The translations under genes and the position numbers were made by a program. A DNA stretch of 64,000 nucleotides from Bradyrhizobium ottawaense (GTDB taxonomy: Bacteria > Pseudomonadota > Alphaproteobacteria > Rhizobiales > Xanthobacteraceae). Location of the stretch: the NCBI RefSeq assembly GCF_002278135.3, contig NZ_CP029425.2:7354001-7418000 (forward strand). Direction: 5' to 3'. The notes beneath the pieces were generated by a model. The model worked only from the letters and a program-made list of their open reading frames with translations, was not told where the DNA came from and ran no database searches. Below are positions 12,960-63,665 of the stretch, piece after piece; position 1 is the first letter of the stretch; each line of letters opens with the position of its first letter.

Positions 12960-13464
12960 TCGATATCGTACAGATTCGTCGCACTCTCAGGATTGCTGGC
13001 TTCTTCAAGAATGCAGGAGCTTTGAATGAAGGATGGGGAATGCCATGGGTGTGCTGGTTTCCGCTCGATCTCGCCCACCGTTCCGATTTGGTGTCGCCCG
13101 CCATGCCCAATCGCTTTTCTTAGCTGCGGCTGAAGTTCGTGCATGGTTTCCTCGGCGCGCCCGGTGCTGCTGCTTCTTCCTCGCACGTGCGTCAGGCATT
13201 TCCTGGCATTGGACGGGGTCTTCTCGGCATAACGCATTGCAAGCTCGTCAGGCTCCAAGCTCTTCTCAGGCAATTGCAGACGCGACAACCACAAGCAGTT
13301 CTGCCCGCAGCAGCCCATTACCCTTGCCGTCCCACCAAGCCTGGTAGGTGCGATCACGGGTCGTTTCGGGGATGATCCGACGCGAGTAAAGGTGCAACAA
13401 CGGCTACAGCTATCAACTAGGAAATACGAGCGTCGGCCTCCAAAGAACGGAAGCCGGATTTCCT
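12960..13464. other. No confident gene
   Basis: Overlapping frames on both strands without a family match. I searched for a tts box before the 13465 gene and did not find a good one. Confidence 0.4.
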
Positions 13465-13848
13465 ATGGCGACTGGTTTCACCAGCCAGCGGTGGCGAGAA
13501 CTGTTTCCCGGACGGACTGATGTCACATCAATCGTGGATTTTCAGGTTGCACATCCGCTCGTCGGTAACGCCGGCGATATTCTGCTCGAGCACCAACTAG
13601 GGCGAGACGGCGAACGGCCGCTAGTGAACTGGCGTCCTGCCAATGACGAAGCGAGAGCCCGTGCAGAACAACTGGGCTTCGTTCATGTGGATCCCGATGA
13701 TATGGTACTTGATCCCACCCAGTCCAAACAGTGGAGATATAGGGATGGTGAATGGCAGCGCGCAACCAATTCTTCGATGTATCTCTCCAAAGCGTCGAGC
13801 GATGATGAACCTTCATCAGAGCCCGACTCGGATGGAGACTTCATGTGA
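13465..13848 (+). CDS. Hypothetical acidic protein, possible effector (127 aa)
   Basis: A single clean frame starting MATGFTSQRWRELFPG. It is a soluble protein with a strongly acidic, Ser-rich tail (SSDDEPSSEPDSDGDFM). A small tryptophan-rich region lies around QWRYRDGEWQRA. No signal peptide or membrane segment. No family recognised and no convincing tts box, so the effector idea rests only on composition and neighbourhood. A hairpin terminator lies 170 bp downstream. Confidence 0.45.
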   Translation: MATGFTSQRWRELFPGRTDVTSIVDFQVAHPLVGNAGDILLEHQLGRDGERPLVNWRPANDEARARAEQLGFVHVDPDDMVLDPTQSKQWRYRDGEWQRATNSSMYLSKASSDDEPSSEPDSDGDFM

Positions 13849-28775: not shown

Positions 28776-30111
28776 ATTGACACGCATGAGGCGGATCGGA
28801 TCGCCCCGCTCCTGGTGTCATGGCTTACCCCGCTTGCCAAGAGCGCCTGCCTCTTCTGCACTCAATAGCGCTTCTGCGAGACGTTTAATTGGACGGACGA
28901 ATGCTCACGGCTTTGTACACAGCGAGACGGACCGCCGCGCGCAGTTCGACGGCATGGTCGAACTGTGTCGCCGTTGCCTCACAACGATTCCAAACTGAAG
29001 GCACCCCGACAAAGAGCATTCAATTGCACTTGAATCTCACCTCGCGTCAGATTGTAGGATTTCCGACAGTCTCGCGACACAGTCCGCTCGTGTGAACTCT
29101 TCCTGACGGGTACCAACAATTGCGAACGTCTCAAAAACTCAATGCTCGGCCGATTCGGTTGATCACACTACCCAACTCCTCCTTTTTAGAGCTTGCATCG
29201 TTCATCTGCTCTGTGAGGGCTGGGCGAAGCGCCGTCTTCGCAGGCAGACCTGGATCCAGCGCGCGAGAACAACGCGGGCAGTCTTTGTTTCGCCTATGCC
29301 GACGAAAGGCAGAGTTCCTGAGCCGTGCACCCGATCCGACGACATGGAGCCGGCGTCGCCGCCTCAGACAAGGCACGACAGCAATGCCGCACGTAATTTG
29401 TCCTTCATTGGCAGCACTAGCTCAGTTGGGACGGAGAACGCCTCGGAAGCGACCGAGCATTGGAACGGTTGACATCTTACTTGGATAACGCCGGCAAACG
29501 AGAGGACGTCTGTCCCGAAGGACGCGTTGATCGTTTCGTCGCATCTCGGCCTTTTACGCCCCATTGGCCGGCACATAGCGCGCGAAGTGTCTTTAGCGCG
29601 GAACACTTGCAATGCCGCGACTTGACGGCACTACGGCCAACAGCCTCGCAAGACTGACCGCGGATCAAGACGAACTGGGAAGTATTCAATGTCGGTTTCG
29701 CAAGCCTGTTCGACGACAAATACAGCTGATCTCGCCCGTGCCTTGCTTTCGCTGGGGCAGTCTCGCGCGATCACTACCGCTAGCATTCGCGCAGCGCATG
29801 CAGGCATTGCTATGTGCCGCCCACAGATGCATCAGTGCGCCGCCAGGGCTCTCAACCCCGTAAGTCATCGCAGAGCTCTTGCCAACATAACGGATATGTT
29901 GAGCTGCGCCGCCCGCCCAGGCGACCCGCCGCGAGCCGTCACATATCCGATGTCAATGGATGCGCATGCATCGGTCGCCTGCCAACAAGCTCTTGCGGGT
30001 CGTCTACGGCTTTTCGAATTCATGCCAGACCGGCAGCATCCAGTCGCCGGATCTCTTGGTCAACCCTAACACGCTCAAGTCTTGCCGAGGACGGACGAGA
30101 GGCGATGGATG
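28776..30111. other. Long leader between nod box and ttsI
   Basis: About 1.3 kb with only weak frames (for example 29689-30069, plus strand, no family). No other promoter motif of the nod or tts type is seen, so ttsI transcription probably crosses this stretch. Confidence 0.4.
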
Positions 30112-30798
30112 CGAATTCTCCTGGTTGATCATCATGCGGACTTTGGCCGCGCTGTGAAGGCAACGCTCGTGAATTGCGGGTTCGCGGTGGACGTGACGCC
30201 CACGCTGGATGAGGCGTCAGCCGCGCTGGATTGCGCAAACTACCACCTCGTACTGCTGGAGTCCGTCTTGCCGGATGGGGATAGTTTGGACTGGTTGAAG
30301 CAGTTGCGGCGCGAAGGACGATCAATGCCGGCAATGATGATGAGCAGTCTCAATGATCTCAGCCGCCGGATCGCGACCTTCAATGCGGGAGCGGATGATT
30401 TCCTGCCCAAGCCTGTGTCGATCGACGAACTCATCGCTCGCATGCGGGCCATTTTGCGAAGGTCAACGCAAATGACGGCGCCGGTCGTGACATTCGGGAA
30501 TCTGCATTTCGATCCGATCGCCAGACAAGTCTCGGTGGGTGGCCGGATCCTGAGGATTGCTCGGCGTGAGGTGTGCATTCTCGAGCATCTGCTCAATCGC
30601 GCCGGCCGCACTGTGCCGCGCGCTTCGCTGGAAGATAGCTTGTACGCGTTCGATGACGAGGTTTCGACCAATGCGCTGGAAGTCGGGATTTATCGCTTAC
30701 GCGCGCATTTGAACCAGGCGGGTGCGACGCTCAGAATCAAGACCGCGCGCGGCGTCGGTTACACTCTTGAACTCGTTGGCACAGCATCGGCTGCCTAG
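30112..30798 (+). CDS. ttsI: TtsI, response-regulator-type activator of T3SS genes (228 aa)
   Basis: An OmpR-type transcription factor that binds tts boxes. Start MRILLVDHHADFG; the longer upstream frame adds an unrelated tail. The receiver domain (1-118) has the acidic pocket but Glu51 (VLLESVLPDG) in place of the phosphorylated Asp, a known feature of TtsI implying activity without a kinase. Lys is kept in LPKPVSI. The winged-helix DNA-binding domain (about 125-222) ends with TNALEVGIYRLRAHL and TARGVGYTLE. No sensor kinase gene is adjacent. It lies downstream of a nod box and just before rhcC2. Confidence 0.93.
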   Translation, partial: RILLVDHHADFGRAVKATLVNCGFAVDVTPTLDEASAALDCANYHLVLLESVLPDGDSLDWLKQLRREGRSMPAMMMSSLNDLSRRIATFNAGADDFLPKPVSIDELIARMRAILRRSTQMTAPVVTFGNLHFDPIARQVSVGGRILRIARREVCILEHLLNRAGRTVPRASLEDSLYAFDDEVSTNALEVGIYRLRAHLNQAGATLRIKTARGVGYTLELVGTASAA

Positions 30799-30824
30799 CA
30801 GCGTCACTTAAAGGCAACAATCGC

Positions 30825-32279
30825 TTGAAGGTCCTTAATAATGCCGCCGGCGCTACCCAGCCGCCTGCGATCACCAACCCACAACGCTCTGCCGCTCTCA
30901 ATCGTCTCTGCTACCTCCTATGCGGATTTGCTTTGCTGTTTCCGCTTGCGGCCTCAGCCGAGACCAAGCGGGACGGCAAAGGAGAGATGCCACGTGCGGC
31001 ACCCGGCAGCACCACGGGCACGCTCAATATTACCTCGTCACAGGGAAAGACGGTGCATTTGAGCGCACCGGCGGCGACCATTTTTGTCGCCGACCCTGCA
31101 ATTGCCGATTATCAAGCTCCGTCGAGCAGTACAATTTTCGTGTTCGGCAAAAAGTCCGGGCGGACGAGCCTGTTCGCCCTCAACGAAAACGGCGAGGCTC
31201 TTGCCGAGCTGCGTATTGTCGTAACCCAACCACTCGAGGATCTACGGGCCGCGCTCAAGGCCGAGGTCGGCGACTATCCAATTCAGGTCAGCTATACCCC
31301 GCGCGGGGCGATCCTTAGCGGTATAGCGCCCAATGCCGATGTCGTTGAGGCTGCGAGGAAGGTCACTGAGCAATTTGTTGGCGCGGGCGCCCCGGTCGTC
31401 AACAAGATCCAGGTCGCCGGCTCACTGCAGGTAAATCTCAGCGTGCGCGTAGCAGAAGTCTCCCGCACCGCCGTCAAGGATCTCAACATCAACTTCACCG
31501 CCTCGGGCCCAAACGGCGCTTTCCTTGCCACCGGCAAACCGGGAGGGTCCGGCAGGGCTGGCGGCGGCGGCACGATTGGGATCGGGTTTAGCACCGGCAA
31601 TATCAACCTCAGCGCTGTTCTCGACGCTCTCGCCAGTGAGCACCTCGCCTCAATCCTGGCTGAGCCGAACCTGACGGCAATGTCCGGCGAAGCCGCAAGC
31701 TTCCTCGCCGGCGGCGAGTTTCCGATCCCAGTCATGCAGGACAACAGGCAGGTTTCGGTCCAATTCCGGCAGTTCGGCGTGAGCTTGGAATTCGTCCCGA
31801 CAGTGCTCAGCAACAACCAGATCATTGTCCGTGTGAAGCCCGAAGTCAGCGAACTATCGACCGAAGGCGAAGTCAAGATCAATGGTATGGCGGTTCCTGC
31901 CCTCTCGACGCGGCGGGCGAGCACCGTGGTCGAGCTCGCCAGCGGCCAGAGCTTTGCAATCGGCGGCCTCATCAGGCGCAACTTCAACACTGATATCGGC
32001 GAGTTTCCCTGGCTCGGCGACGTACCGATCCTTGGTGCGCTTTTTCGCTCTTCATCGTTTCAAAAACGCGAAACCGAGCTAGTTATCGTTGTTACACCTT
32101 ACATCGTACGGCCGGGATCAAATCCAAGCCAGATAAGTATTCCGACCAACCGCATCGCACCGCCATCAGATGCAGGCCGCATCTTGACGAACACGGTGGC
32201 ACGGCCGCCTCAAGGCCGCGATGCGCCGCGCGCGAGCGCACCGGGACTGACGGGCAACGCCGGCTTTATCATCGAATGA
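30825..32279 (+). CDS. rhcC2: RhcC2, T3SS outer-membrane secretin component (484 aa)
   Basis: Forms the outer-membrane ring. TTG start at 30825 with AAAGG upstream; the signal peptide (LCYLLCGFALLFPLAASA) follows. An N-terminal pilus/secretin N-domain (GTLNITSSQGKTVHLSAPAA to LAELRIVVTQ) comes first. The secretin core (ILAEPNLTAMSGEAASFLAG to ELVIVVTPYIVRP) is complete, with the usual GEFPWLGDVPILGALFR. Overall it looks closer to CpaC of Tad pili than to enteric T3SS secretins. In rhizobia RhcC2 is thought to work with RhcC1 (NolW), which is not in this window. It begins 26 bp after ttsI. Confidence 0.88.
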   Translation: MKVLNNAAGATQPPAITNPQRSAALNRLCYLLCGFALLFPLAASAETKRDGKGEMPRAAPGSTTGTLNITSSQGKTVHLSAPAATIFVADPAIADYQAPSSSTIFVFGKKSGRTSLFALNENGEALAELRIVVTQPLEDLRAALKAEVGDYPIQVSYTPRGAILSGIAPNADVVEAARKVTEQFVGAGAPVVNKIQVAGSLQVNLSVRVAEVSRTAVKDLNINFTASGPNGAFLATGKPGGSGRAGGGGTIGIGFSTGNINLSAVLDALASEHLASILAEPNLTAMSGEAASFLAGGEFPIPVMQDNRQVSVQFRQFGVSLEFVPTVLSNNQIIVRVKPEVSELSTEGEVKINGMAVPALSTRRASTVVELASGQSFAIGGLIRRNFNTDIGEFPWLGDVPILGALFRSSSFQKRETELVIVVTPYIVRPGSNPSQISIPTNRIAPPSDAGRILTNTVARPPQGRDAPRASAPGLTGNAGFIIE

Positions 32280-32289
32280 GGATCGACAT

Positions 32290-32952
32290 ATGAACATGCG
32301 ATATTTGTCCCATTCGATTGTCCTTGCCGCAATATTGGGGGGCTGCGCAAATACTGCGTCGATCCATCCCAATCCTGCCGAACAAGGAGTCCAGGTCGAA
32401 CAGAAAAAGCGTGTCTTGCTTCTGCAGAGCCTCCATGCCCTCGAAAAGCTTCAGCTGCGTAATTTTATCGCCGACGCAAGTGGTGGCCGGCGGGATGCGC
32501 TCCATGTGGATGTCAGCGGCTCCCATAAGCTCATTGCGCAGGTGGCGCACGAAGCACGCGCCATGGGGGTTGTTCCCTCTAACATCCGGCTGTCCGCTTC
32601 TCCCCTCAATTTATCGGGCCGTTCCGCCGTCAGGATCGAGGCGATTACGTTTGAAGCGCATCTTCCGAACTGTCCGTCGCTTTTGATCGCAGGACCAGCA
32701 GTGGACGACAATTCGTTCGAACCGACTCTTGGTTGCTCGACCAAAAACAACCTGGGAGTGATGGTGAACGATCCGCTCGACCTGGTTGATAATCGGTCTG
32801 TCAGCACGGTAAATGGCGATCGCGCCGCCGCTCCTCTTGCTAGTCACTCTACTCTCGCAGCGCGCAACAAGGGCAACGGAGAAGATGGAGCAAGCACGAC
32901 AGCGCCGGACGCAGCGGGACCAACAACACAGAATGTGCAGCCGCTCCGATAG
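32290..32952 (+). CDS. CpaD-like lipoprotein next to the secretin (220 aa)
   Basis: The signal has a lipobox, ILGGC with Cys19, so the protein is probably anchored in the outer membrane. The region EPTLGCSTKNNLGVMVNDPLDLV (written here in part) is the hallmark of CpaD pilus-assembly lipoproteins. A Thr/Ser/Pro-rich tail follows. Start ATG 32290 has GAGGATCG before it and lies 10 bp after rhcC2, so the two are co-transcribed. The homologue in NGR234 is y4xK. Inferred role: pilotin or stabiliser of the RhcC2 ring. Confidence 0.75.
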   Translation: MNMRYLSHSIVLAAILGGCANTASIHPNPAEQGVQVEQKKRVLLLQSLHALEKLQLRNFIADASGGRRDALHVDVSGSHKLIAQVAHEARAMGVVPSNIRLSASPLNLSGRSAVRIEAITFEAHLPNCPSLLIAGPAVDDNSFEPTLGCSTKNNLGVMVNDPLDLVDNRSVSTVNGDRAAAPLASHSTLAARNKGNGEDGASTTAPDAAGPTTQNVQPLR

Positions 32953-51846: not shown

Positions 51847-52962
51847 TACCCGGAATCAGAGCTGAGTGATACGGCGGCCTTTGAAACGGCGTTGACGGAC
51901 CTTTTTCTTGGTCCAGACGAAGGGCTCGGCTCTGTCGTTGTATGCGTTGACGTAGGCATCGATGTGTTCCTGAAGCTGCTTGAGGCTCGTGAAGGAGGTG
52001 CCGCTGAGCGACTGCCCCTGCAAGATGGAAAACCATACTTCGACCTGATTGAGCCATGGCGCACTTGTCGGCGTGAAATGAAATTGCACGTTGGGGTGGG
52101 CCTTGAGCCAGTCCTCGTTCTTTTTATGGGTGTTGAGGTTGTCGAGGATGACGTGAAGCTTGCGGTTCGGAAAAGCCGCGGTGACGCTGTTCATGAAATC
52201 GAGAAACTCGACGCGGCGCCGGCGTTTTGAATGGGTCGCGATGATCTTTCCGGTGGCGACTTCGAGCGCCGCAAACAATGTTGTGGTGCCATGCCGCTTG
52301 TAATCGTGGCTTTGGCCGGTCAAGGCGCGGCCATTGGGCAACTTCAGATAACCCTGCGCTCGCTCCAAAGCCTGGATCGAGGGCTTCTCGTCCACGCACA
52401 GCACAATGGCCTTCGCCGGCGGCGCGACATAGAGGCCGACAACATCGGCGGCTTTGGCCGTAAAGTTCGGGTCGTTGCTCTCGCACCAGGACTTGCGAGC
52501 CACCAGGTCAATCTTGTGGCTGCGCAGGAACCGCCAGACATATTGGACATCGACATCGCCCAGCGCCTCGGCCAGCAGGGGGCCGGTCCAGCGCGCAAAC
52601 CCTTGCGGTGGCGGCTTATCCAGCAGCTTCAGAATCCGCTTGTCGGTCGTCTTCGTATAGATCGGCTGCTTGCCAGGCCGCGGCTTGTCTTGCAGCCCTT
52701 CAAGGCCATGGTCGGCATAGCGATGCCGCCAAAGGCTGACAATCCGCGGCTGGACCCCAACTTCCTTGGCGATCGACCGGGTGCTGCGCCCATCCGCCGC
52801 CAACAGAACTATCCGCGCCCGCTTCAAATCGCGCTGCAACGTCACCGGTGAGCGACAGCACGCCTCAAGCACCTTGCGATCTTTCCTCGAAAGGTGGACT
52901 TCTCTTCCTTCGGGTATCATCCCGACCTTGAATCACGACTCACGTTCCAAGAAAAGTGGGTA
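51847..52962 (-). mobile_element. IS630-family element
   Basis: The ends read TACCC...GGGTA with CTAG outside on both sides, consistent with insertion at a TA dinucleotide. One intact transposase fills it. Confidence 0.7.
51856..52920 (-). CDS. IS630-family transposase, intact (354 aa)
   Basis: Tc1/mariner-type DDE enzyme. Helix-turn-helix at GRSTRSIAKEVGVQPRIVSL. Catalytic residues in VLCVDEKPSIQ, HVILDNLNTHK and WLNQVEVWFS. Full length with no frameshift. Confidence 0.9.
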   Translation of the reverse strand: MIPEGREVHLSRKDRKVLEACCRSPVTLQRDLKRARIVLLAADGRSTRSIAKEVGVQPRIVSLWRHRYADHGLEGLQDKPRPGKQPIYTKTTDKRILKLLDKPPPQGFARWTGPLLAEALGDVDVQYVWRFLRSHKIDLVARKSWCESNDPNFTAKAADVVGLYVAPPAKAIVLCVDEKPSIQALERAQGYLKLPNGRALTGQSHDYKRHGTTTLFAALEVATGKIIATHSKRRRRVEFLDFMNSVTAAFPNRKLHVILDNLNTHKKNEDWLKAHPNVQFHFTPTSAPWLNQVEVWFSILQGQSLSGTSFTSLKQLQEHIDAYVNAYNDRAEPFVWTKKKVRQRRFKGRRITQL

Positions 52963-53254
52963 CTAGTTGACGATCAGCACTACCGGCTTGTCAACCGAGT
53001 GGCAGGGTCCCCTAGCCAAGGTGGTACAAGTCGACGTCCTCGAGGGTGTAGGCGCTGAAGCTCCCGAAATGGGCGAACAAGTTGTTGCGCTTGGCGCCGC
53101 AGCTGATCCGGTGATCCGGTCGGCGAGGCCGCGGCCCAGAGGCTATCGGGCGAGCGCATCGGCGCCTCGCGGAAGATGCGAGCATCGATTGAGCGCCAGC
53201 CTGCAGATCGCAGCGTCAGGACAGGACGACCTAGTCACGTGAATCTAATGTTCG

Positions 53255-53400
53255 CCACATAAAGTCTGCTGGGTTTTGTGGCAGAAGCGTTTGACGGAAG
53301 CCAAAATCTGGTCTGCGGACTTGGTCCATTTGAAGGGCTTCGGGTTTTGGTTGTGCAGGTGGATGAAGGTGCAGATGTCGGCCTCGAGTTGCCCGACGGA
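53255..53400 (-). pseudogene. IS630-family transposase, C-terminal fragment
   Basis: SVGQLEADICTFIHLHNQNP and KPFKWTKSADQILASVKRF are the typical end of an IS630 transposase. Nothing upstream remains. Confidence 0.7.
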
Positions 53401-53627
53401 GGTGTCGTCTAATCGCTGCTGGGACGTCAAGCATTTAGTTTCGTCAAGAGACGCTGCCGGGTGCGTGGTTGTCTTCGCGGTCGACATTGGTCGCCGCATG
53501 ATGGAGCTTCGCGGACGAGCCTTCAATGTGGACGACGCACTTTGCTGAGTCAGCAGTGCAACCCCATCAGCGGAATGGCTCGGCTCACGTCCTGGCAGGG
53601 ATACCTTAGGCGTTCAGGTTCTGAACG

Positions 53628-54659
53628 CTATCCGAGCTTATGCGGCAGCTCCGGCATTCGGATTGAACAGCTCGCCGGTCTTAAGCATCGTATGCTTATC
53701 ACCGCCAGTTTCCGTGCCACAGCCACGGCGGCTCTTTTGAAGCCGATCCTCTCCCGGAGATGCCGTCCCCACGTCCGCAGAGCGCTGTCGGTTGAGCTGC
53801 GCGTCAGAATGACCGCTGCCGCTTCATAGAGAAGCCCACGCAAATGGCGGTCGCCACGTCGGGATATATGGCCATCATAATCGACTTCTCCGGATTGGTA
53901 GCGGCGCGTTGTCAGGCCGATCCACGCGCCAACAGATCGGGATTTCCTAAAGTTGTCAGGCTCCTCAATAGCTGTGGCAAAAGAGGTTGCGGTGATCGCA
54001 CCGATGCCCGGAATCGACATGAGGATGCGGCAGGCCTGACTCTCGCGCGCATCCCGAACCAACTGGCGACCGAGTTCGGCGGCGCGGATGCGAATGCCAC
54101 GCCAGGCTTCCAGCATCGGAAGCACGATGGATGCAAGTCCGTCCTGATCAACCAGAAGGTTCCGGACGTTCTCGAAGGTGCTTCCCTTTCCGGCGGGAAC
54201 AAGCAGACCGAAGGTCTTCATGACGCCGCGGATCTGGTTCGAAAGCTCGGTGGTGATCCGGACCAGCCGCGTGCGCGCCGCGACAAGCGTGCGGGTCAGC
54301 ATGCTGTTGAATCCCTTCACGCGCACCTCACGAAAGAACCCGACTTCCGCGAGCTGCGCCAGACCATCGGCGTCGTTCGCGTCCGTCTTGTTCGCCGCCA
54401 TATCGAGCGCCGCTTTATCATGGCGCGCATCGACGCAGATCGCCGGCAATCCTTCGGTGCGCAAAGAATGATAGAACCATACCGACAGCGGTCCCGTCTC
54501 GAACACCACGCGTTTCACGGCCGGCGCCCGCTTGCGGATGAGCGCGGCGATGACACTGGGATCAGATGCACACTTGCCGCGCCAGATCCGTTCACCTGCT
54601 CGACGGATCGAGACCGCCGTCTCTTTCATCGACACATCGAGACCGATATACTCTTCCAT
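53628..54659 (-). CDS. IS110-family transposase (343 aa, altered C-terminus)
   Basis: Start MEEYIGLDVSMKETAVSI, the usual DEDD-domain beginning. NKTDANDADGLAQLA and the C-terminal transposase_20 motif (LMSIPGIGAITATSFATAIE; RSVGAWIGLTTRRYQSG) are complete. A one-base loss near 53695 changes the last residues: the normal tail (MLKTGELFNPNAGAA) lies in another frame. Confidence 0.85.
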   Translation of the reverse strand: MEEYIGLDVSMKETAVSIRRAGERIWRGKCASDPSVIAALIRKRAPAVKRVVFETGPLSVWFYHSLRTEGLPAICVDARHDKAALDMAANKTDANDADGLAQLAEVGFFREVRVKGFNSMLTRTLVAARTRLVRITTELSNQIRGVMKTFGLLVPAGKGSTFENVRNLLVDQDGLASIVLPMLEAWRGIRIRAAELGRQLVRDARESQACRILMSIPGIGAITATSFATAIEEPDNFRKSRSVGAWIGLTTRRYQSGEVDYDGHISRRGDRHLRGLLYEAAAVILTRSSTDSALRTWGRHLRERIGFKRAAVAVARKLAVISIRCLRPASCSIRMPELPHKLG

Positions 54660-54857
54660 GGCTGTTCTCCATTCGATGCTTGGGCCCGGCGTCCAGTCGT
54701 GAGCCCGTATTTCCATCCTATCGGGGAACAGCCACCCTCCAAGACTATTGATTGTCTTTAGGGCAACACGCTCCTGCGATTACCCCATGTGGACGCCCCC
54801 TCACGGCATCGCTGTGCCAAAGTGGTGTCGTTGACCATCACTTGAACGGAGGCGTCC

Positions 54858-55314
54858 ATGTCGGAATTTAGCATAATCGCGTTGGATCTGGCGAAGAATG
54901 TGTTCCAGATGCACGGCGCGGATGCATCAGGAACCGTGCTTTTCCGCAAGAAGCTGCGCCGGGATCAGATCCTTAAATGTCTTGCCGCGCAGCCGACGTG
55001 CACGGTCGCAACGCGACTTTGCGGCATGGCTGGGGCTTACCCCGCTGCAGCGCTCCACCGGAGGCAAGCAGAAGCTCGGCAAGACGTCACGTATGGGCGA
55101 ACGAACCCTGCGACGACTACTGATCATCGGCGCGAGCGCGGCCGTGCGCTGGGCAATGCGCAAAGACTCGACAGCGGATTCTTGGCTTGCGCGCATGCTT
55201 GCCCTCAAGCCGCCCATGCTGGTGATCGTCGCCCTCGCTAACAAGATGGCGCGCATCGTCTGGGCATTGATGGCGAGAGGCGGAACCTATCGGGCTCCGG
55301 CTGCGGCGAAGTAG
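54858..55314 (+). pseudogene. IS110-family transposase, internally deleted
   Basis: The N-terminus MSEFSIIALDLAKNVFQMHG is joined near 55010 to the C-terminal region (DFAAWLGLTPLQRSTGGKQK; MGERTLRRLLIIGASAAVR) in a different frame. The middle is missing. Confidence 0.75.
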
Positions 55315-55529
55315 TTCCGCGGCAGGGACCGTGAGTGTGAGAAGGTCAACCGGAGAGTATGGCGCACGGTCACGAGACAGGAATGGGAAAACCAGATCAT
55401 GGATACGCGCCTCGAGCACGCGAAGTTGAATTGGACCCGTTCCGCGAACTCCCATACGGGCCAGCGGCATGTGGCAGCCGCAACAAAAGGCCGAACACAT
55501 GTCAGCGCCCGACCACGCTCCGCACTCTT

Positions 55530-56360
55530 CGAAAGATTCTTCTTGCACCAACGGGGGCGTCTACACATGTCCATGACGATATGGACATCGAGGCCTTCAG
55601 GAACTTGAGCATCGATCTCTTTTAAAAACTTCAAGACTCGACTGCCCGGTGGCGCTTGTAGCATTTGCCGATGACGAACCCCGAGGCGACATCGAGCGCG
55701 GCAAACAGCGTGGTCGCACCATGCCGCACATAGCTGTGCGTACGACGCTCCGGTATGCCGGGCATCATTGGCAAGACCGGCTGCTCGCGATCGAGTGCCT
55801 GAATCTGGCTTTTCTCATCGATGCTGAGGACAAGGGCTCGGTTCGGCGGGGACAGGTAAAGCCGACGATGTCGCGTGCCTTGTCGACGAGCCGCGGATCG
55901 CTCGACAACTTGAATGTCTGGCTACGGTGCGGTTGCAAGCCGAACGCCGACCACATTCGGCGGATCGTGGTGCGGGAAAAGCCAGTTTCCGCAGCCATCG
56001 AGCGGATCAACCATTGCGTCGCCTCGGCCGGCGTCGTACGCAGCGTGCGATCGATCATGGCGGCAACCTGATCGTCGTTGATGGTGCGAGGGCGGCCAGG
56101 GCGTGCCTCGTCAAGCAAGCCATCACAGCGATCCTTCAAAAATCGGCGGCGCGACTTGCCAACGGTGTGTTCGTGGAGGCCGAGTTCGGCAGCCACAGAC
56201 TTGCTTGGCAAGCCATCCGCCCACCGCAGGATCGCGCGGCATCGCTCAGGAAAGCAACCGCGCAGCACGATGACGACGAACTTGCCTCTCCAAGTACGCC
56301 CGCTCCTGCGGACTCAGCACCAACGGCGCGATCGGCCGGCCTTTCCCACCTGCATTCGCC
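55530..56360 (-). pseudogene. IS630-family transposase, several frameshifts
   Basis: A helix-turn-helix part (RAILRWADGLPSKSVAAELG; TTIRRMWSAFGLQPHR), then [20 protein letters not shown] in another frame and [20 protein letters not shown] in a third. The last catalytic Glu region is missing. Confidence 0.75.
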
Positions 56361-56427
56361 ACAAGCGCTCTCCTCTCTCGAGATTCAAGCTATCAACCAA
56401 TGCGACGAACTTGCGTTCCGGATGACT

Positions 56428-57263
56428 AGGGTCTGTACCTAAATAGCGCCACGTGATTCTCTTGCCTACGTGTTGATTCGGGGGCGAGAGAATGCGCGCT
56501 GGTTTGTTTTGGCTGAACGACAGGCAATGGGCGCGTATCGAACCGCATCTGCCGAGGGGACTGACGGGGCCGGATCGGGACGACGACCGACGCATCGTCA
56601 GCGGCATCATTCACATGCTGCAATCGGGTGCACGATGGCGTGATTGTCCACGTGAATACGGCCCTTACACGACGATCTACAATCGCTTCAATCGCTGGGC
56701 CAAGCGAGGACGATGGTGCGCAATCTTCGAAGCGCTGGCCAAGCCTGGCGAAGACGGCGTCGTACTGTCGCTCGACTCGACCTCGATTAAAGCTCACCGG
56801 TGTGCCTCCGGCGGAAAAGGGGAAGCACAATCAAGCAATCGGCCGCTCGCGCGGAGGCCGCACGACAAAAATCCATGCGCTGAGCGATCCGCTCTGCCGG
56901 CCGGTCGTCCTGCATCTGACTCCAGGCCAGGATGCCGATATCGCTGCGGCTCCCGATGTCCTGGCGCTCGCGCCACCCATGAGCGTGCTCCTCGCCGACA
57001 AAGGGTATGATGGCGACAAGCTTCGCGGCGCAATCATTCGTCGTGGCGCCAAGCCCGTAATCCCCAATAAATCTAACCGTGTCGTCATCCATCGCTTCAA
57101 CAAACGCGCCTACAAAGGACGAAATGTCATCGAACGCTGCTTTTGCAGGCTCAAGGACTTCCGGCGCATCGCCACGCGATATGACAAGCTCGCCCGTAAT
57201 TTTTTGGCCGCTGTTCATCTCGCCGCTCTCGTCGCATATTGGCTCAATTGAGTCTGGACCCTA
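56428..57263 (+). mobile_element. IS5-family (IS427-like) element beside rhcU
   Basis: Ends GGGTCTG and the inverse GGACCC, with CTAG-like sequence at both borders. Inserted directly at the 3' end of rhcU. Confidence 0.65.
56492..57251 (+). CDS. IS5-family transposase in two overlapping frames
   Basis: OrfA (MRAGLFWLNDRQWARIEPHL; WRDCPREYGPYTTIYNRFNR) runs into OrfB (SRGGRTTKIHALSDPLCRPV; LLADKGYDGDKLRG; NVIERCFCRLKDFRRIATRY). The switch falls at GGAAAAGGGG near 56814-56823, a likely slippage site, in the +1 direction. If frameshifting occurs, the enzyme is complete. Confidence 0.8.
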
Positions 57264-58298
57264 GACTAGCCCCGCCGCATAGAGCGCTTTTGCGACTGAC
57301 TCGAAATACTGCGAAGGCACCGGGTTGCCGAGCCTTGCCTTGCCGAGCAGCTGACGCGCCAGAACATTGTCCTCCACAATGTTGAGGCGAAGCGCGCGCG
57401 CCTCACCAAGCAGCTGTGAAGCAGCTTCACCCTCGCCACGGCAGACCAACACCGGCACACCGGTCTCGCCGCGAACATAGCGCAGACCAATCAACGTTGC
57501 CGGTCCCCGCAATATCAACGTGGCCCGGCTGATGCCGAGTGGAGCCTCGTTTGCCGACTCTTGCCGCAGCCGCCGGTGCTCGCGCTTCACCTGCGGATTG
57601 CCTTGCTGTTCCTTGTTCTCCCGCTTGGCCTCCGTTTCCGTCATGCGCATGTCCTGCATAAACAACCAACGCTGGATTAGAAGGTCAGCCAATCCGCCGA
57701 CCAGAAAAGCTCCAGCGGCAATGCCAATCAGCAGTTTAACCTCGGTGAAGACGAAACCAAAACAGCCCATGCCGCAGACTGGCAGGTACACCAGCGCTTT
57801 CCAGCTCGCGGTCACGGTTAAAAAGAAGATCGCACCAAGCAAAACCACTTTAGCCAGGGTCTTGCCAAGCTCGATGGCCGAACGTTTCGAGACGATACGC
57901 TTCAAGCCTTTGATGGGATCGAGTTTCTCGAGCTTCGGCTTGAGCGGCTCCGAAGCAAACATAAAGCCGCCATTGGCCAGGACATTGGCCAGAAGAGCTG
58001 CTGTCACGGCAGCGGCGAGCAACGGAGCGACAGTGGCAATCGAAAGTTCTAGCAAGCCGCTGAGCGCTTGTGGCACCGCGCTTGTGAACGGCTGCTCCTG
58101 CAGTTTATCGACCAGCCGGACCGTCTCCTGCCACTTGTCCTCAATGGCACCCGCTCGCCACCACAGACAGCCGAAACCGGCACAGGCGCTGACGCCGCTC
58201 ACTAGATCGGAGCTGCGCGCGCTCTGCCCCTTCTTGCGCGCATCGCGCAGCTTCTTGGGCGTCGGAGGAAGCTTTTTCTCCTCACTCGTAGAGCTCAT
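57261..58298 (-). CDS. rhcU: RhcU, T3SS export-apparatus switch protein, NPTH motif absent (345 aa)
   Basis: SctU/FlhB family: an N-terminal basic start ([20 protein letters not shown]), four membrane segments (about 30-210), then a cytoplasmic domain with [14 protein letters not shown]. In the family, the Asn-Pro-Thr-His loop self-cleaves to switch substrates. Here the aligned position before [16 protein letters not shown] reads G265-P266-A267-T268, so the catalytic Asn and His are both missing. The stop codon is formed at the border of an IS5-family element. It overlaps rhcT by 4 bp. Confidence 0.9.
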
Positions 58299-59116
58299 TT
58301 CAACAGCTTCCTCAGATGATCGAGCATGTCGTTCGAGGTCAGGATTTCAGAACCGGCATATTCGAGCAGATAGACGGTGTAGCTGACCATAATGACCCCG
58401 AATGCAACATTCTTGATCATCGGAGAGAGATCGTTCATCTTGAGCTGAGATGCAAAACGGCCGAGCATCATGACCGAGATATCCACCAGCAACAGCAGGG
58501 CCAGAACCGGCCCGGCGACCAACAAGGTCGTCATCATGATACGATCGAGAAGGGCAAGACACTCCATTGCCCCTTGCACTGTCAAGGCAGGCAAAAACTG
58601 ATAGACAGGCCACACTAGGTAGCTGCCATAAAGGCCGCTCACCATGGTCTGCAGCCCGCCGACCAGAACGAAGATCGTAACCGCCGTAACACCGAGAAAG
58701 AGCCCGGTTCCAGTCGCTTGGCTGTGCGTCGCGGGATCCTCCCCCGCAACTTGGCTTGAAATTCCTCGTTGGGTATCGATGATGTCGCCGACTGCCTGTA
58801 TGCTCCATAGTGGAATACTGAGCAGGATGCCGAGCATCAGACCGACGAACACCTCCTTCACGCCAAGCATGGTAACGCTAACCAAGCGCGTGTTCGGGTC
58901 CAAGGCCTGCAGACCGAGCTTGATCTGAGCAAGGCAAGGCAGGCCAATCGCAATCGTCAGGCTTCCCCGAATGAGGCCGCTGATACGCGGCCGGGTGAAG
59001 ACAGGAAGCACCAGCATGATGCCTAGGGCGCGGGCCGCACTCAGGCCGGTTGCGGCGACGAATTCGATCGAGCCCTGAACGAGAACTTGCGCCTCTGCGG
59101 GTGACAGGCCAGCCAT
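58295..59116 (-). CDS. rhcT: RhcT, T3SS export-apparatus membrane protein (273 aa)
   Basis: SctT/YscT/FliR family. Several membrane segments; the conserved [20 protein letters not shown] near the start and [20 protein letters not shown] in the middle. Part of the inner-membrane export gate with RhcR and RhcS. Starts 10 bp after rhcS. Confidence 0.92.
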
Positions 59117-59126
59117 CCAAGCTCTG

Positions 59127-59408
59127 CTAGTATCTTGCGGTGAGTGCCGGAAACTCGCTGAAGATGCGCTCGGCCTGGTCGATCAGCGGGGCGCTGAGAA
59201 CCGGGGAAAAACCGGCGAGCACGGCGACGACAACCAGAAGCTTGACCGTCAGTGGCAGGGTTTGGTCCTGGAGCTGAGTTGCCGCCTGGATAAGGCCAAT
59301 GATCAGTCCGGAGATCAGAGCTGCGAGCAACGGCGGCAGAACCCAGATCATGAAGAGCACGAGCGATTGACTGAGGTGCGTAAGGATGCTGGCTTCGTTC
59401 ATGGTCAA
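59127..59408 (-). CDS. rhcS: RhcS, T3SS export-apparatus membrane protein (93 aa)
   Basis: SctS/YscS/FliQ family. Two hydrophobic hairpin segments around [20 protein letters not shown] and [11 protein letters not shown], with the conserved [10 protein letters not shown] between them. Overlaps rhcR by 4 bp. Confidence 0.93.
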
Positions 59409-60070
59409 CCTCCTGGCGTGGTGTAGCTTAGTACTAGCCCGTGCATGAGACGTGACCAGCCGTCGATAGTGACGAACAGAAAGAGCTTGAAGGGGACAGA
59501 TATCACTGTGGGGGATACCATCGACATACCCATGGCCATCAAAATCGTGGTGACAATCAGATCGATCGTGATGAAGGGAAGATAGAGAAGAAAACCGATT
59601 TCGAAGCCCCGCTTGAGTTCGGAAATCAAGAACGACGGCACAAGAATTGAGAAATCATCTGCCGTTACGCTGCCGCGCATCTCCTCCGACCAGACATGTT
59701 CGGTGGATGACAGGAAGAAGCGGCGCTGCTCTTCATTGGTGAATTTCTTCAGATGAACACGCAGCGGCTCCTGTCCCTCCTTGGCGGCCATCACCCAGTC
59801 ATCGAAACTCTGGTAGCGAAGTTGCGGATCGGTAAGGCGGTTATAGGTCTGCTCGAAGACTGGAGCGCTGATGAAGACGGTCAGGATGAGTGCCGCTCCG
59901 TAAAGGACGATGTTCGGCGGTATCGATTGAGTTCCTAGCGCATTGCGCACGAGGAAGAGAACAACCGAGACCTTGATAAAGGCTGTAGTTGTGACGACAG
60001 CAAAGGCCAGGAGACCAAGGCCGACCGTTATTGCAAGAAGCGCCAGGATGCTGGGTTGAATTTCAGTCAT
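59405..60070 (-). CDS. rhcR: RhcR, T3SS export-apparatus membrane protein (221 aa)
   Basis: SctR/YscR/FliP family. Start MTEIQPSILALLAITVG; the longer frame adds an unrelated N-terminus that overlaps rhcQ. The signatures SVVLFLVRNALGTQSIPPN, LVPSFLISELKRGFEIGFLL and GMSMVSPTVISVPFKL are present. Start overlaps rhcQ by 8 bp. Confidence 0.94.
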   Translation of the reverse strand: MTEIQPSILALLAITVGLGLLAFAVVTTTAFIKVSVVLFLVRNALGTQSIPPNIVLYGAALILTVFISAPVFEQTYNRLTDPQLRYQSFDDWVMAAKEGQEPLRVHLKKFTNEEQRRFFLSSTEHVWSEEMRGSVTADDFSILVPSFLISELKRGFEIGFLLYLPFITIDLIVTTILMAMGMSMVSPTVISVPFKLFLFVTIDGWSRLMHGLVLSYTTPGG

Positions 60071-61184
60071 TAAGCGCCAACCTGCCGCGTAACCTGACGG
60101 CGAGCTCCTCGCCGATCCGCACGATGTCGCCTCGGCCGATACGTTGGCCGTTCGCAACGATATCGACCGGCCCGTCAAGATGCCGGCCAAGTTCGAACAC
60201 GTGGCCTTCGTTGATGGTTCGCAAGGTTCCCAACGGCATCGGCCAGCGGCCACATTCGAATACGAGTGTGATCTCGATGCTGTCGATATCCGCCTCTGAC
60301 GGGGGCTGCTGTTGCATCTGGTTTTGGGGCATCACATCTTCACTTTTTAGAGGGTGGGATCGCAAGCGGAATGGTCCTCGCAGCACCAGCCTGTCGCCGC
60401 CAATCTCTGCAGGGGCCCACAATCGGTCTGCAACGAGAACAATTTGGCCTCGCGCGAGTGGAATTGTGTCCGGGAGCAGCGCATCGCCTTGCTCTGCTTG
60501 GCGAAGAACGCCGATCGCGACGCGGAGCGAGCCGATATGGCCTGCAACGATGACCGGGAGTTCGGAAAGCAGCCTGGCCGCCTGTCGCGGTAATCGGCCG
60601 AGCAGCTCGCCGAGGACGGTGAAAGCCGGAGGCACCGGACCGTCGAACGGAGAGAATAGAAGCAGCCGAGCCTTGCTGGCGAGCTCACCATAGGCGACGT
60701 CAAATTCAAGATAAGGCTGCGTACTCCGCGCTTCCTCGGTGCGAACAAGCTGCAGATTCCGCTGCGTCATTCTTTCCAGCGCAGCAAGCAAGGGTTCAAG
60801 CGCAAGTTCCAGGACCAGCGAACGCGCCGGCTCAGAAGGTAAGGTAAGCCCATTCTGCACGGTCCGAACCAGCGCTTCCGCAAGCTTACCCGGCAAGGAC
60901 AGGATCAAGGTTTCACCTTCTACTTCGAAGACGCAGTCGAGCATCGGTGCCGCAGCCGGCTCCGCCTGCCAGACGGTCCGGCTCACGCGCACAGATAGCG
61001 GCTTCTCGCCGAGGAGGCCTTGTAGAGGCGCACGCAACGCTGTGATCTCGTTAAGCCACGAGGCCACTGCGTGCGACAGGATCAGCGACGGCATGAAGGC
61101 TGCGCGCTCAGCCGGCCGGTCCGAGGCCGGTGCGGCTTCCGCGCCGCAGGCCCCGAGCTCGCGCGTGAGAGGATCTGCAATCAT
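60063..61184 (-). CDS. rhcQ: RhcQ, T3SS cytoplasmic ring / sorting platform protein (373 aa)
   Basis: SctQ/YscQ/FliN-M family. The C-terminal SPOA domain (ITLVFECGRWPMPLGTLRTI; IGRGDIVRIGEELAVRL) is complete. The N-terminal part is divergent, as usual. It would form the cytoplasmic sorting platform with NolU and NolV. Overlaps rhcZ by 4 bp. Confidence 0.9.
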   Translation of the reverse strand: MIADPLTRELGACGAEAAPASDRPAERAAFMPSLILSHAVASWLNEITALRAPLQGLLGEKPLSVRVSRTVWQAEPAAAPMLDCVFEVEGETLILSLPGKLAEALVRTVQNGLTLPSEPARSLVLELALEPLLAALERMTQRNLQLVRTEEARSTQPYLEFDVAYGELASKARLLLFSPFDGPVPPAFTVLGELLGRLPRQAARLLSELPVIVAGHIGSLRVAIGVLRQAEQGDALLPDTIPLARGQIVLVADRLWAPAEIGGDRLVLRGPFRLRSHPLKSEDVMPQNQMQQQPPSEADIDSIEITLVFECGRWPMPLGTLRTINEGHVFELGRHLDGPVDIVANGQRIGRGDIVRIGEELAVRLRGRLALND

Positions 61185-61717
61185 GCTGGCTCACCTCCCG
61201 TCTGCCCTGACGGGCCGCGCCGGTAGCGGAGCAAGACTTCATCATCAGCTTCGATTTCGGCGGCGGCTTCGAAATGAGCACTCGTGGTGCGCCGAACGTC
61301 TTGATCAATCTCACGCCATTTCTGGCTCGCCGCTGAACGCCTGGCCCAAACGGCCCTCGCCTCAAGAACCGCAGTCTCAGCTTGCGTCTGAGCAGCACGG
61401 GCATTTTCAAGAACCTGCTGCGCCGCTGCAATCTCGTCTGTGAGCCGGCCGATGATGAGATGATAGCGCCGCTGCAGCTCGCAAACAGACATCGCATCGG
61501 CTGCTAGCATCTCCCGATAGAGCTCTGCCTCGAGCTTTGCCCGGCGCTCTTCGGCATGTGTAAGATGCTCGAAAGCTCGTTGGACAGCTTGGATCGCAAG
61601 GTGGCGCTTGGCTTCCATGTTAGACAATTCACGAATGGCGCTTCGCTCCCGCATGTCCTTTACGAGCCGCAGCTTCGAGGCGTGAACGGGACTTAGGCGG
61701 TCAGACGCGATATCCAT
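61181..61717 (-). CDS. rhcZ: RhcZ (Y4yJ/SctO-like), T3SS stalk protein (178 aa)
   Basis: A long helical, coiled-coil protein (RKSAIRELS-type heptads; HLTHAEERRAKLEAELYREM) of the YscO/FliJ kind that connects the ATPase to the export gate. Identification rests mainly on position between rhcN and rhcQ. Overlaps rhcN by 25 bp. Confidence 0.8.
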   Translation of the reverse strand: MDIASDRLSPVHASKLRLVKDMRERSAIRELSNMEAKRHLAIQAVQRAFEHLTHAEERRAKLEAELYREMLAADAMSVCELQRRYHLIIGRLTDEIAAAQQVLENARAAQTQAETAVLEARAVWARRSAASQKWREIDQDVRRTTSAHFEAAAEIEADDEVLLRYRRGPSGQTGGEPA

Positions 61718-63048
61718 GCGATCGTCTCCTCAAAGCTGCACGCCTCACCCTGCCCCTGGCGCAGAAAGGCCCGCAGTTGCTCGATCGAGGCGATCGCCCG
61801 ATCGGTCAGCGGATCAGAGCCTTGTTTGTATTCACCGACCTTGATCAGGAACTCGGCCTCAGCGTACCGTGACAGCAGATCACGGAAAAAGGATGCCGCC
61901 TTGCGATGCGGCACGGACACGATCGCATCCATGACGCGGCTGCGGCTCGACAACACGTCGATCGCCGGAAAATGCTCCCGGGAGGCCAACGCGCGGGAGA
62001 GAATAATGTGGCCATCGAGGATGCCGCGTGATTCTTCCGCTATCGGATCACCCGTGCCGTCACCTTCGACAAGCACAGTATAGAAGGCCGTAATGGAGCC
62101 ATGCTCGCCCATGCCGGCGCGCTCCAACAAGCCCGGCAACAGTGCAAAAACGGATGGCGGAAATCCGCGCCGGGTCGGCGGTTCTCCTGCGGCAAGTCCG
62201 ATTTCACGCATGGCGCGGCTAAAGCGCGTCAAAGAATCCATCATCAGAACGACGCGAAGGCCCTGATCACGAAAATATTCGGCTAGCGCTGTCGCCATGT
62301 GGGCGCATTGGGCCCGCTCCATCGCCGAACGGTCGGAAGTCTCCACCACAACGACGGAACGGTGAAGGGCTTCGCCAAGATGACGTTCGATGAATTCACG
62401 CACCTCTCGACCGCGCTCGCCGATCAGCGCAACGATAGTGACGTCGGCCGCTGCGCCTCTTACGATTTGCGACATCAGCGTCGACTTGCCGCAACCGGCA
62501 TCACCATAAATTCCGATCCGCTGACCTTCTCCGCATGTGAGAAGACCATCCAGGACACGGACGCCGAGCGGGAACGGCTGTTCAATCGCGCGCCGTTTCA
62601 TCGGATTAGGCGCCCTGCCGCGCAGCGGTCTGGCTTCGCCGGCTTTTATAGGGCCCTTGCCGTCGAGCGGCCGGCCAAAACTGTCGATCACGCGGCCGAG
62701 CAAATCGGGGCCGGCAGCCACTTCCTGCATTCGCCCGGTCGTCACCACCTCTGCGCGATTGGACAGCCCCACCATGTCCCCGATGGGCGTGAGTAACACC
62801 CCATCCGGCAACAGACCGATTACCTCGGCCTCGAGCGACCATCCGCTGCGAGGATCCTGCAATAAGCACAGTTCTCCGACCCTGGCCTCCGGCAAGACGG
62901 CGTGCAGCAGCGTGCCCACGGCCCGCGTGATCCGGCCGCGGACAGCGCGTGTATCGATGTGCTTGGCGGAAGATCTTAAGGATGAGAGTGCGGCCTTTAC
63001 GGTTCCTTCTGCGGCCGCGGCATGATGGGTCGGTCGTTGCACGGTCAC
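61693..63048 (-). CDS. rhcN: RhcN, T3SS ATPase (451 aa)
   Basis: SctN/YscN/FliI family, hexameric ATPase that unfolds and delivers substrates. Walker A is GDAGCGKST (182-190), Walker B is VVLMMDSLTRFS, and the family block GEPPTRRGFPPSVFALLPGL is intact. The N-terminal region is F1-beta-like. Overlaps nolV by 4 bp. Confidence 0.95.
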   Translation of the reverse strand: MTVQRPTHHAAAAEGTVKAALSSLRSSAKHIDTRAVRGRITRAVGTLLHAVLPEARVGELCLLQDPRSGWSLEAEVIGLLPDGVLLTPIGDMVGLSNRAEVVTTGRMQEVAAGPDLLGRVIDSFGRPLDGKGPIKAGEARPLRGRAPNPMKRRAIEQPFPLGVRVLDGLLTCGEGQRIGIYGDAGCGKSTLMSQIVRGAAADVTIVALIGERGREVREFIERHLGEALHRSVVVVETSDRSAMERAQCAHMATALAEYFRDQGLRVVLMMDSLTRFSRAMREIGLAAGEPPTRRGFPPSVFALLPGLLERAGMGEHGSITAFYTVLVEGDGTGDPIAEESRGILDGHIILSRALASREHFPAIDVLSSRSRVMDAIVSVPHRKAASFFRDLLSRYAEAEFLIKVGEYKQGSDPLTDRAIASIEQLRAFLRQGQGEACSFEETIAWISRLTA

Positions 63049-63665
63049 GATTCAGCTTCCTCCGTCAAGCCAAAGCCGAGGCGCAGCGCGCGCAGCTGCG
63101 CGGCAAGCCCAAGATCGACGTTGCCGAACTCGCTCCATAAAACACATTGGTCCGCGCTCAGCGCCGGATCCGCCTCAATCCTGAGCTTCGGCCGGCCCTC
63201 AAGTCCGTCATAATCCTTGAACTCACTGGCTAGCAGGTCGGCTTTCAGTGGGGATACGTGAAGGCAGACCTCCGTGTTTTTATATCTTTGCTCGATGGCA
63301 TGACGAACGCACTGGACCAGCATCTTGCCCGAATCAAATGCGCCAAGCAGATCGCGAACGATCTCAAAGACCAGTTGCGGCAATTCCCGCTCCAGAACCG
63401 CCTTGCGTTGGGCCAGTTCACAAGTCGCCTGCGCAATCAGCCGGGCCATTTCCTCTGCGCCAGCCTTTGCACCCTCGGCGCGGCCCTGCGCACGTTCCCG
63501 CTCATAAGCCAGGCGTGCCCACCCTCGAACCCGCTGCAGATGCCGCTCGGCAGCGGCCAGCGCCTGTATGGCATCGTGCCAGATCTCAAGCTGCGCAGCT
63601 GGGATCAGCGGTCCAAGAGCCCGAATCTTCGGGGCCGCGGGTGGTGCGAGGGCATCGGCCGTCAT
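63045..63665 (-). CDS. nolV: NolV, SctL-type ATPase regulator (206 aa)
   Basis: YscL/FliH family. A coiled-coil N-terminal half (WARLAYERERAQGRAEGAKA) and a C-terminal part (VRHAIEQRYKNTEVCLHVSP; LRIEADPALSADQCVLWSEF) that contacts the ATPase. Normal length. Overlaps nolU and rhcN by 4 bp each. Confidence 0.9.
   Translation of the reverse strand: MTADALAPPAAPKIRALGPLIPAAQLEIWHDAIQALAAAERHLQRVRGWARLAYERERAQGRAEGAKAGAEEMARLIAQATCELAQRKAVLERELPQLVFEIVRDLLGAFDSGKMLVQCVRHAIEQRYKNTEVCLHVSPLKADLLASEFKDYDGLEGRPKLRIEADPALSADQCVLWSEFGNVDLGLAAQLRALRLGFGLTEEAES

Follow-up and report, generated by a model that had tools for sequence, protein, structure and literature searches.

Background

Can a type III secretion system (T3SS) run on an export-gate protein of the SctU/FlhB family that lacks the Asn-Pro-Thr-His (NPTH) motif at which such proteins cut themselves? 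The self-cleavage proceeds by cyclisation of the Asn and needs that residue. The question is raised by rhcU, the sctU gene found in a 64,000-nucleotide stretch of Bradyrhizobium ottawaense DNA (hereafter the window), for which a sequence-only reading had reported a Gly-Pro-Ala-Thr (GPAT) loop at the place of NPTH and had offered three options, namely a switch of substrates without cleavage, a gene that is losing its function, or cleavage elsewhere in the protein.

The substrate switch is described as requiring NPTH cleavage in passages of structural and genetic papers, e.g. PMC7064499. The uncleavable N257A mutant of Shigella is reported to be blocked in switching (PMC3542141), while in Xanthomonas the binding of HpaC is reported to need the NPTH residues and the Asn to be essential for pathogenicity (PMC3040844). 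A 2026 preprint argues that the cleaved C-terminal piece of FlhB is ejected by FliK (PMC13060781). Rhc-I systems, among them those of NGR234 and USDA110, have been reported as functional (PMC3973906). Papers of 2012 and 2014 had already noted that rhizobia have no recognisable SctP (PMC3574062, PMC3973906), and the 2014 paper asked whether rhizobial T3SSs use an unrelated ruler or need none. A full-text search of the open-licence literature, which leaves subscription papers outside its reach, returned no mention of a missing NPTH in rhizobial RhcU, and the word NPTH is absent from the texts of PMC3973906 and PMC3574062.

The Rhc-I locus and the loop of RhcU

The locus is a T3SS of the Rhc-I type, with the operon nopB-rhcJ-nolU-nolV-rhcN-y4yJ-rhcQRSTU, a split secretin and TtsI. 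Nine core components were present (SctC, which is split, and SctJ, N, Q, R, S, T, U and V), and these, together with SctD, SctL and TtsI, all lie in the window or at most 20 kb beyond it. No match to NopX was obtained in the 103.8 kb searched. The features relevant here are as follows.

57261..58298, minus strand: rhcU (sctU), 345 aa, ATG to TAG, intact, without NPTH
57495..57506, minus strand: codons of G265-P266-A267-T268, at the place of NPTH; the G is invariant in relatives and the next three residues drift
58295..59116, minus strand: rhcT (sctT)
59127..59408, minus strand: rhcS (sctS)
59405..60253, minus strand: rhcR (sctR); the listed frame starts upstream of the likely start
60063..61184, minus strand: rhcQ (sctQ)
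61181..61717, minus strand: SctO-like coiled-coil gene (y4yJ type), the sole gene between rhcN and rhcQ
61693..63048, minus strand: rhcN (sctN, ATPase)
63045..63665, minus strand: nolV (sctL)
30070..32949, plus strand: frames of a TtsI-like regulator, an RhcC2-type secretin and a CpaD-like lipoprotein, of the same T3SS and away from the main operon

Open-frame pieces with resemblance to the effector NopP were also seen, apart from each other, at 13390-13845 and 77413-78335, the latter counted past the window end.

RhcU belongs to the FlhB/SctU export-gate family, as it matched the PF01312 profile with 263.5 bits (curated cut-off 24.4) and its gene stands at the end of the run sctL-N-O-Q-R-S-T-U, adjoining sctR, sctS and sctT. 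With TIGR01404, the NCBIfam SctU equivalog, it scored 261.5 bits, below the cut-off of 358, and this was still the best of nine matching models. Aligned with FlhB and SctU proteins of known structure, the loop of RhcU lacks the Asn, the Thr and the His and is one residue shorter: the Asn position is occupied by Gly, the Pro is retained, and Thr-His is replaced by Ala and a one-residue gap. The open reading frame, the PF01312 match and the alignments thus confirm that a full-length RhcU carries GPAT at 265-268 and is without the NPTH of the autocleaving switch proteins. NPTH is retained in both full-length FlhB proteins that this genome encodes.

A displaced motif was looked for and is ruled out, since NPTH occurs nowhere in the 345 residues and the other Asn-Pro pairs of RhcU (234-235 and 325-326) are not conserved; in 62 deduplicated NPTH-less rows, position 234 carries Asn-Pro in 32 rows, position 325 in 11 and position 310 in 2. 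The loop segment was 17 residues long in 53/53 rows with Asn-Pro and 16 residues long in 202/210 rows without it, in a count of 263 rows from two collections in which some genomes are present twice. As to whether close relatives share GPAT, an identical loop was found in two of them (L007 and L008), and all others have variants, always without Asn-Pro.

The insertion sequence at the 3' end of rhcU

56430..57260, plus strand: insertion sequence (IS) between two CTAG copies (56426-56429 and 57261-57264)
56492-57010 and 56628-57251: two overlapping transposase frames of the IS
57261..57263 (plus-strand numbering), minus strand: TAG stop codon of rhcU, intact beside the IS

The IS leaves the coding sequence of rhcU untouched. 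The IS-free relatives examined end rhcU at the same codon (TAG, or TAA in L045); in L007 and L008 the contig extends into this IS as well. The suggestion that an insertion at the stop codon adds to a question of decay was therefore not borne out. Transposase frames of several kinds crowd the 3' side of the operon, 51856-57251, which lies between rhcU and the TtsI/secretin frames at 30070-32949.

Selection on rhcU and the predicted structure of RhcU

The gene is under purifying selection, with a dN/dS of 0.076-0.154 for the whole of rhcU in 23/25 comparisons where it was defined, and similar values for the cytosolic part. Residue variation was followed in 150 unique sequences, taken from 174 rows at >=52% identity to the query RhcU. 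G265 was present in 150/150, and G271, R273 and Y274 were likewise invariant. Positions 266-268 were all variable, 266, 268 and 298 belonging to the most variable of positions 215-300; position 266 was R in 44, Q in 35, P in 28, S in 22, A in 10, E in 5 and K in 3, with a few others. GPAT as a new conserved motif is accordingly ruled out, the G alone being conserved in these sequences. The rest of the cytosolic domain was strongly conserved, which argues that this domain still has a job.

The predicted model of RhcU has long helices followed by a domain matching EscU/YscU, as expected of the family, at an overall pTM of 0.43. Within it, strands 261-264 and 268-273 are predicted to be joined via a tight turn (pLDDT 75-91 in blocks from 261 onward). 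Uncleavable YscU/EscU mutants made up its first seven structure matches, a ranking that may merely reflect their being single chains.

Occurrence of Asn-Pro among relatives

Asn-Pro was absent from the site in all 44 RhcU proteins of named Bradyrhizobium and Microvirga genomes (0/44; L007-L050), which were drawn from 78 loci among the best 80 of 100 matches; the other 34 loci, from Bacillus, Paenibacillus and Domibacillus, encode FlhB with NPTH. It was also absent in 11/12 plasmid-borne relatives, namely both T3SS-1 and T3SS-2 of NGR234, three Mesorhizobium, Bosea, S. alkalisoli, R. etli Mim1, B. guangxiense, Microvirga lotononidis and Phyllobacterium, the one that retains NPTH being R. etli IE4803 (Rhc-III). 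The alignment with RhcU of other Bradyrhizobium and of NGR234 that the sequence-only reading had called for thus shows no Asn-Pro at the site.

Across the genus, a match at E <= 1e-60 was obtained in 128/265 genomes, and 130 of the 142 rows listed lacked Asn-Pro. The 12 rows that have it fall, where they survived deduplication, in other clades of the tree described below. Both kinds of sctU occur together in some genomes, e.g. G949, G890 and G924. Among the best matches listed, Asn-Pro was lacking in 17/27 order loci from outside the genus and in 4/29 phylum loci; these samples are parts of longer lists, the order sample being the loci with a stored locus, and they came from searches seeded with NPTH-less sequences, so that other injectisomes are under-sampled and T3SSs at large lie outside their scope.

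Three single records may be mentioned separately. The Rhc-II-type RhcU of Phyllobacterium zundukense (L092 12001-13041) has Asp-Pro (GDPGT) exactly at the place of Asn-Pro. In B. glycinis CNPSo 4016 rhcU is present twice, on separate contigs (L011 5001-6035 and L017), and the L011 copy has an internal stop. Klebsiella plasmid records (H45-H47) hold a full-length SctU, 36.6% identical to RhcU, beside sctT.

A single loss on the tree

Deduplication at 90% identity left 106 rows, and trees were made as quick searches with SH-aLRT as the only support. With the loop and motif columns removed and two rows omitted (L119, truncated, and L141, with an internal stop), the tree of 104 rows placed all 62 Asn-Pro-less rows in one clade (SH-aLRT 100, branch 0.71). 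The Asn-Pro state changed once on this tree, against a mean of 33.0 in shuffled data, and 0/500 shuffles were as low. Membrane-domain columns alone, with L120, L130 and L197 also omitted, still gave one clade of 59 Asn-Pro-less rows (SH-aLRT 99), as did all 106 rows with 64 of them (SH-aLRT 98). In addition to Rhc-I and Rhc-II, the clade takes in a second Bradyrhizobium group (L184-L192) and three loci (L135-L137) outside the class. Since the 42 Asn-Pro rows, both FlhB and other injectisomes, all fall outside it, Asn-Pro is most simply taken as ancestral. The lack of Asn-Pro is well supported at the level of the whole clade, and it is a trait of a deep clade, not the private defect of one gene.

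Apparent absence of sctP from the same clade

The sequence of SctP is so variable, according to the part of PMC3459982 that deals with it, that absence judged by similarity is weak evidence, and gene spacing was used instead for this reason. Spacing could be measured in 25/40 neighbourhoods (11/20 with Asn-Pro and 14/20 others; in the rest sctN or sctR was absent or on the other strand). Room for a putative sctP between sctN and sctQ was found in 11/11 Asn-Pro loci, the extra gene of L312 and L313 being counted here, vs 0/14 loci without Asn-Pro. In 11/11 Asn-Pro loci, where sctO is followed by a further gene, sctN and sctR are 1865-2341 bp apart; in 14/14 others, with sctO alone, the distance is 937-1740 bp, the shortest (937 bp, L341) reflecting a short sctQ frame. 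In annotated named clusters that have both sctN and sctQ, exactly one gene stands between them in 7/7. The rhcN-rhcQ gap of the window likewise holds one gene, SctO-like by weak matches, in which no T3S4 domain was found and which showed no resemblance to T3S4 sets in a profile comparison.

Searches for T3S4 families agree with the spacing. Near the T3SS of the window no PF02120, PF09483 or TIGR02514 match, and hence no T3S4 partner, was found. In the whole genome PF09483 and TIGR02514 gave nothing over cut-off, and the three genes over cut-off for PF02120 are of the FliK type and lie far from the T3SS. Such families occurred at most 20 kb from sctU in 7/28 Asn-Pro genomes (3 over cut-off) vs 0/31 others, at lenient E-values that let in 4/7 matches under the family cut-off. 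When five putative SctP proteins of Asn-Pro loci were compared with Pfam, one exceeded the HpaP cut-off, one had a weak HpaP match and three had none. An unrelated ruler may exist elsewhere in the genome.

The lack of sctP in the clade is supported by gene spacing and the literature. The relevant part of PMC3574062 states that all Rhc subgroups are without hrpP/yscP, Rhc-III included, which fits the NPTH-less subgroups seen here. The loss of NPTH and that of sctP share one branch, their association not being statistically independent, and a functional link between them would rest on this one shared branch.

At C1:3591210-3591718 of the same genome (L097, L004), a short open frame without membrane part, which matches only the last 74 residues of FlhB/SctU, comes closely after a FliK-type T3S4 gene.

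The gene before sctQ in Rhc-III clusters

In Rhc-III clusters (L089 8653-9213; L314-L318) an unannotated gene of about 180-220 aa precedes sctQ. By profile comparison it matched the putative SctP set with a probability of 54 and the T3S4 set with 72, against 0.1 for a SctO control set; the A3-A5 comparison (95.7) is partly circular, a piece of L321 being in both sets. Pfam assigned it no T3S4 family (L089 and L315 had no family, and L317 one unrelated weak match). As a lead, this gene is a possible SctP of weak to moderate T3S4 resemblance, contrary to what PMC3574062 and PMC3973906 state in the parts concerned, and a T3S4-like gene would fit the retention of NPTH in Rhc-III. If PMC3574062 is right on Rhc-III, the loss of sctP alone need not bring that of NPTH, as the Rhc-III sampled here keep the motif.

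Possible explanations

In our judgement RhcU is probably an intact protein of an Rhc-I/Rhc-II injectisome clade that does without the SctP-SctU cleavage switch, and one that, as we infer, is uncleaved. On this view the self-cleaving Asn-Pro disappeared in one ancestor of the clade, together with a loop residue in most members; sctP, whose product elsewhere bears the T3S4 domain that acts on SctU, is likewise missing from the clade. Because the known chemistry of self-cleavage needs the Asn, RhcU most likely stays in one piece, in which case a ruler could not eject its C-terminal part. Export of the pilus subunits (NopA/NopB) and of effectors may then run in a single mode; alternatively, the order of export may be set otherwise than by SctP-triggered cleavage of SctU, e.g. 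by chaperones, SctV or TtsI expression timing. As Asn mutants are reported to fail in Shigella and Xanthomonas, and Rhc-I systems to be functional, the Rhc gate would either pass late substrates uncleaved or use another switch. The more far-reaching proposal, to which we give slightly less than an even chance, is that a functional class of injectisomes, Rhc-I included, has discarded both the SctP ruler and the self-cleavage of SctU, and exports pilus and effectors through a permanently one-piece gate.

Alternatively, switching might be kept and rewired, an uncleaved RhcU shifting its conformation on the signal of an unrelated, unrecognised ruler or of the tip. The strong conservation of the remaining cytosolic domain speaks for this, as does PMC3973906, which allows for rhizobial proteins with the role of SctP and without sequence homology; nevertheless no candidate was found, the sole gene of the sctN-sctQ gap being SctO-like and unlike the T3S4 sets, and we consider it a rather unlikely, if serious, rival. 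Cutting of RhcU at another place, by another protease or another self-cleaving site and with the same effect as NPTH cleavage, is less likely still, since the domain has no conserved Asn-Pro elsewhere and a cleavage site under selection would not drift as this loop does. In its favour, the bond at the site is Asp-Pro, a labile type, in the Phyllobacterium Rhc-II protein; moreover, the uncleavable Shigella N257A is reported to have given a different, larger fragment (PMC3542141).

Decay of rhcU, aided by the IS at its end, could draw on the IS-rich 3' side and on the one relative copy with an internal stop (L011, B. glycinis). It is very improbable and is ruled out by the intact frame and stop, a dN/dS of about 0.1, the presence of the core genes and the generality of the trait in the clade, which includes the T3SS of NGR234, reported as functional (PMC3973906). 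Among the three options raised at the outset, the evidence thus favours switching without cleavage and contradicts loss of function. A sequencing or assembly error at 57495-57510, for which no point in favour was found, has a negligible chance and is ruled out by the identical loop in L007 and L008, the variants of other relatives and the shorter loop in 202/210 rows without Asn-Pro. The variable width of rhizobial fibrils was not taken to indicate that a ruler is missing, since PMC3973906 explains the network by exopolysaccharide.

Comparison with known systems

RhcU shares with the autocleaving SctU proteins (YscU, EscU, Spa40, HrcU) and FlhB the PF01312 fold of membrane part and cytosolic domain and the place in the export gate, in the SctU position after sctT. 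It differs from them in lacking Asn-Pro, whereas they have NPTH and cut themselves there where tested, as far as the cited parts of these papers go. SctP/HpaP/FliK ruler-switch proteins are the expected partners of SctU, and no gene for one stands in the sctN-sctQ gap of this clade. The Rhc-III T3SS (R. etli, some Bradyrhizobium) is also a rhizobial injectisome and occurs along with Rhc-I in some genomes, but it has NPTH and a gene before sctQ that is weakly to moderately T3S4-like, while RhcU of Rhc-I is without NPTH.

The missing NPTH of RhcU makes the ruler question posed in PMC3973906 directly testable, and if these long-studied symbiotic T3SSs work without NPTH and without a recognisable ruler, they would show which parts of the switch are dispensable. 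Close counterparts of RhcU are the laboratory mutants of YscU, EscU and Spa40 (N to A or D), which have lost the same Asn and are the nearest solved structures to the RhcU model. The Shigella mutant, however, is described as blocked in switching (PMC3542141), whereas Rhc-I systems are reported to work; a class of injectisomes with a one-piece gate, if real, would be a natural counter-example to a switch described as requiring NPTH cleavage.
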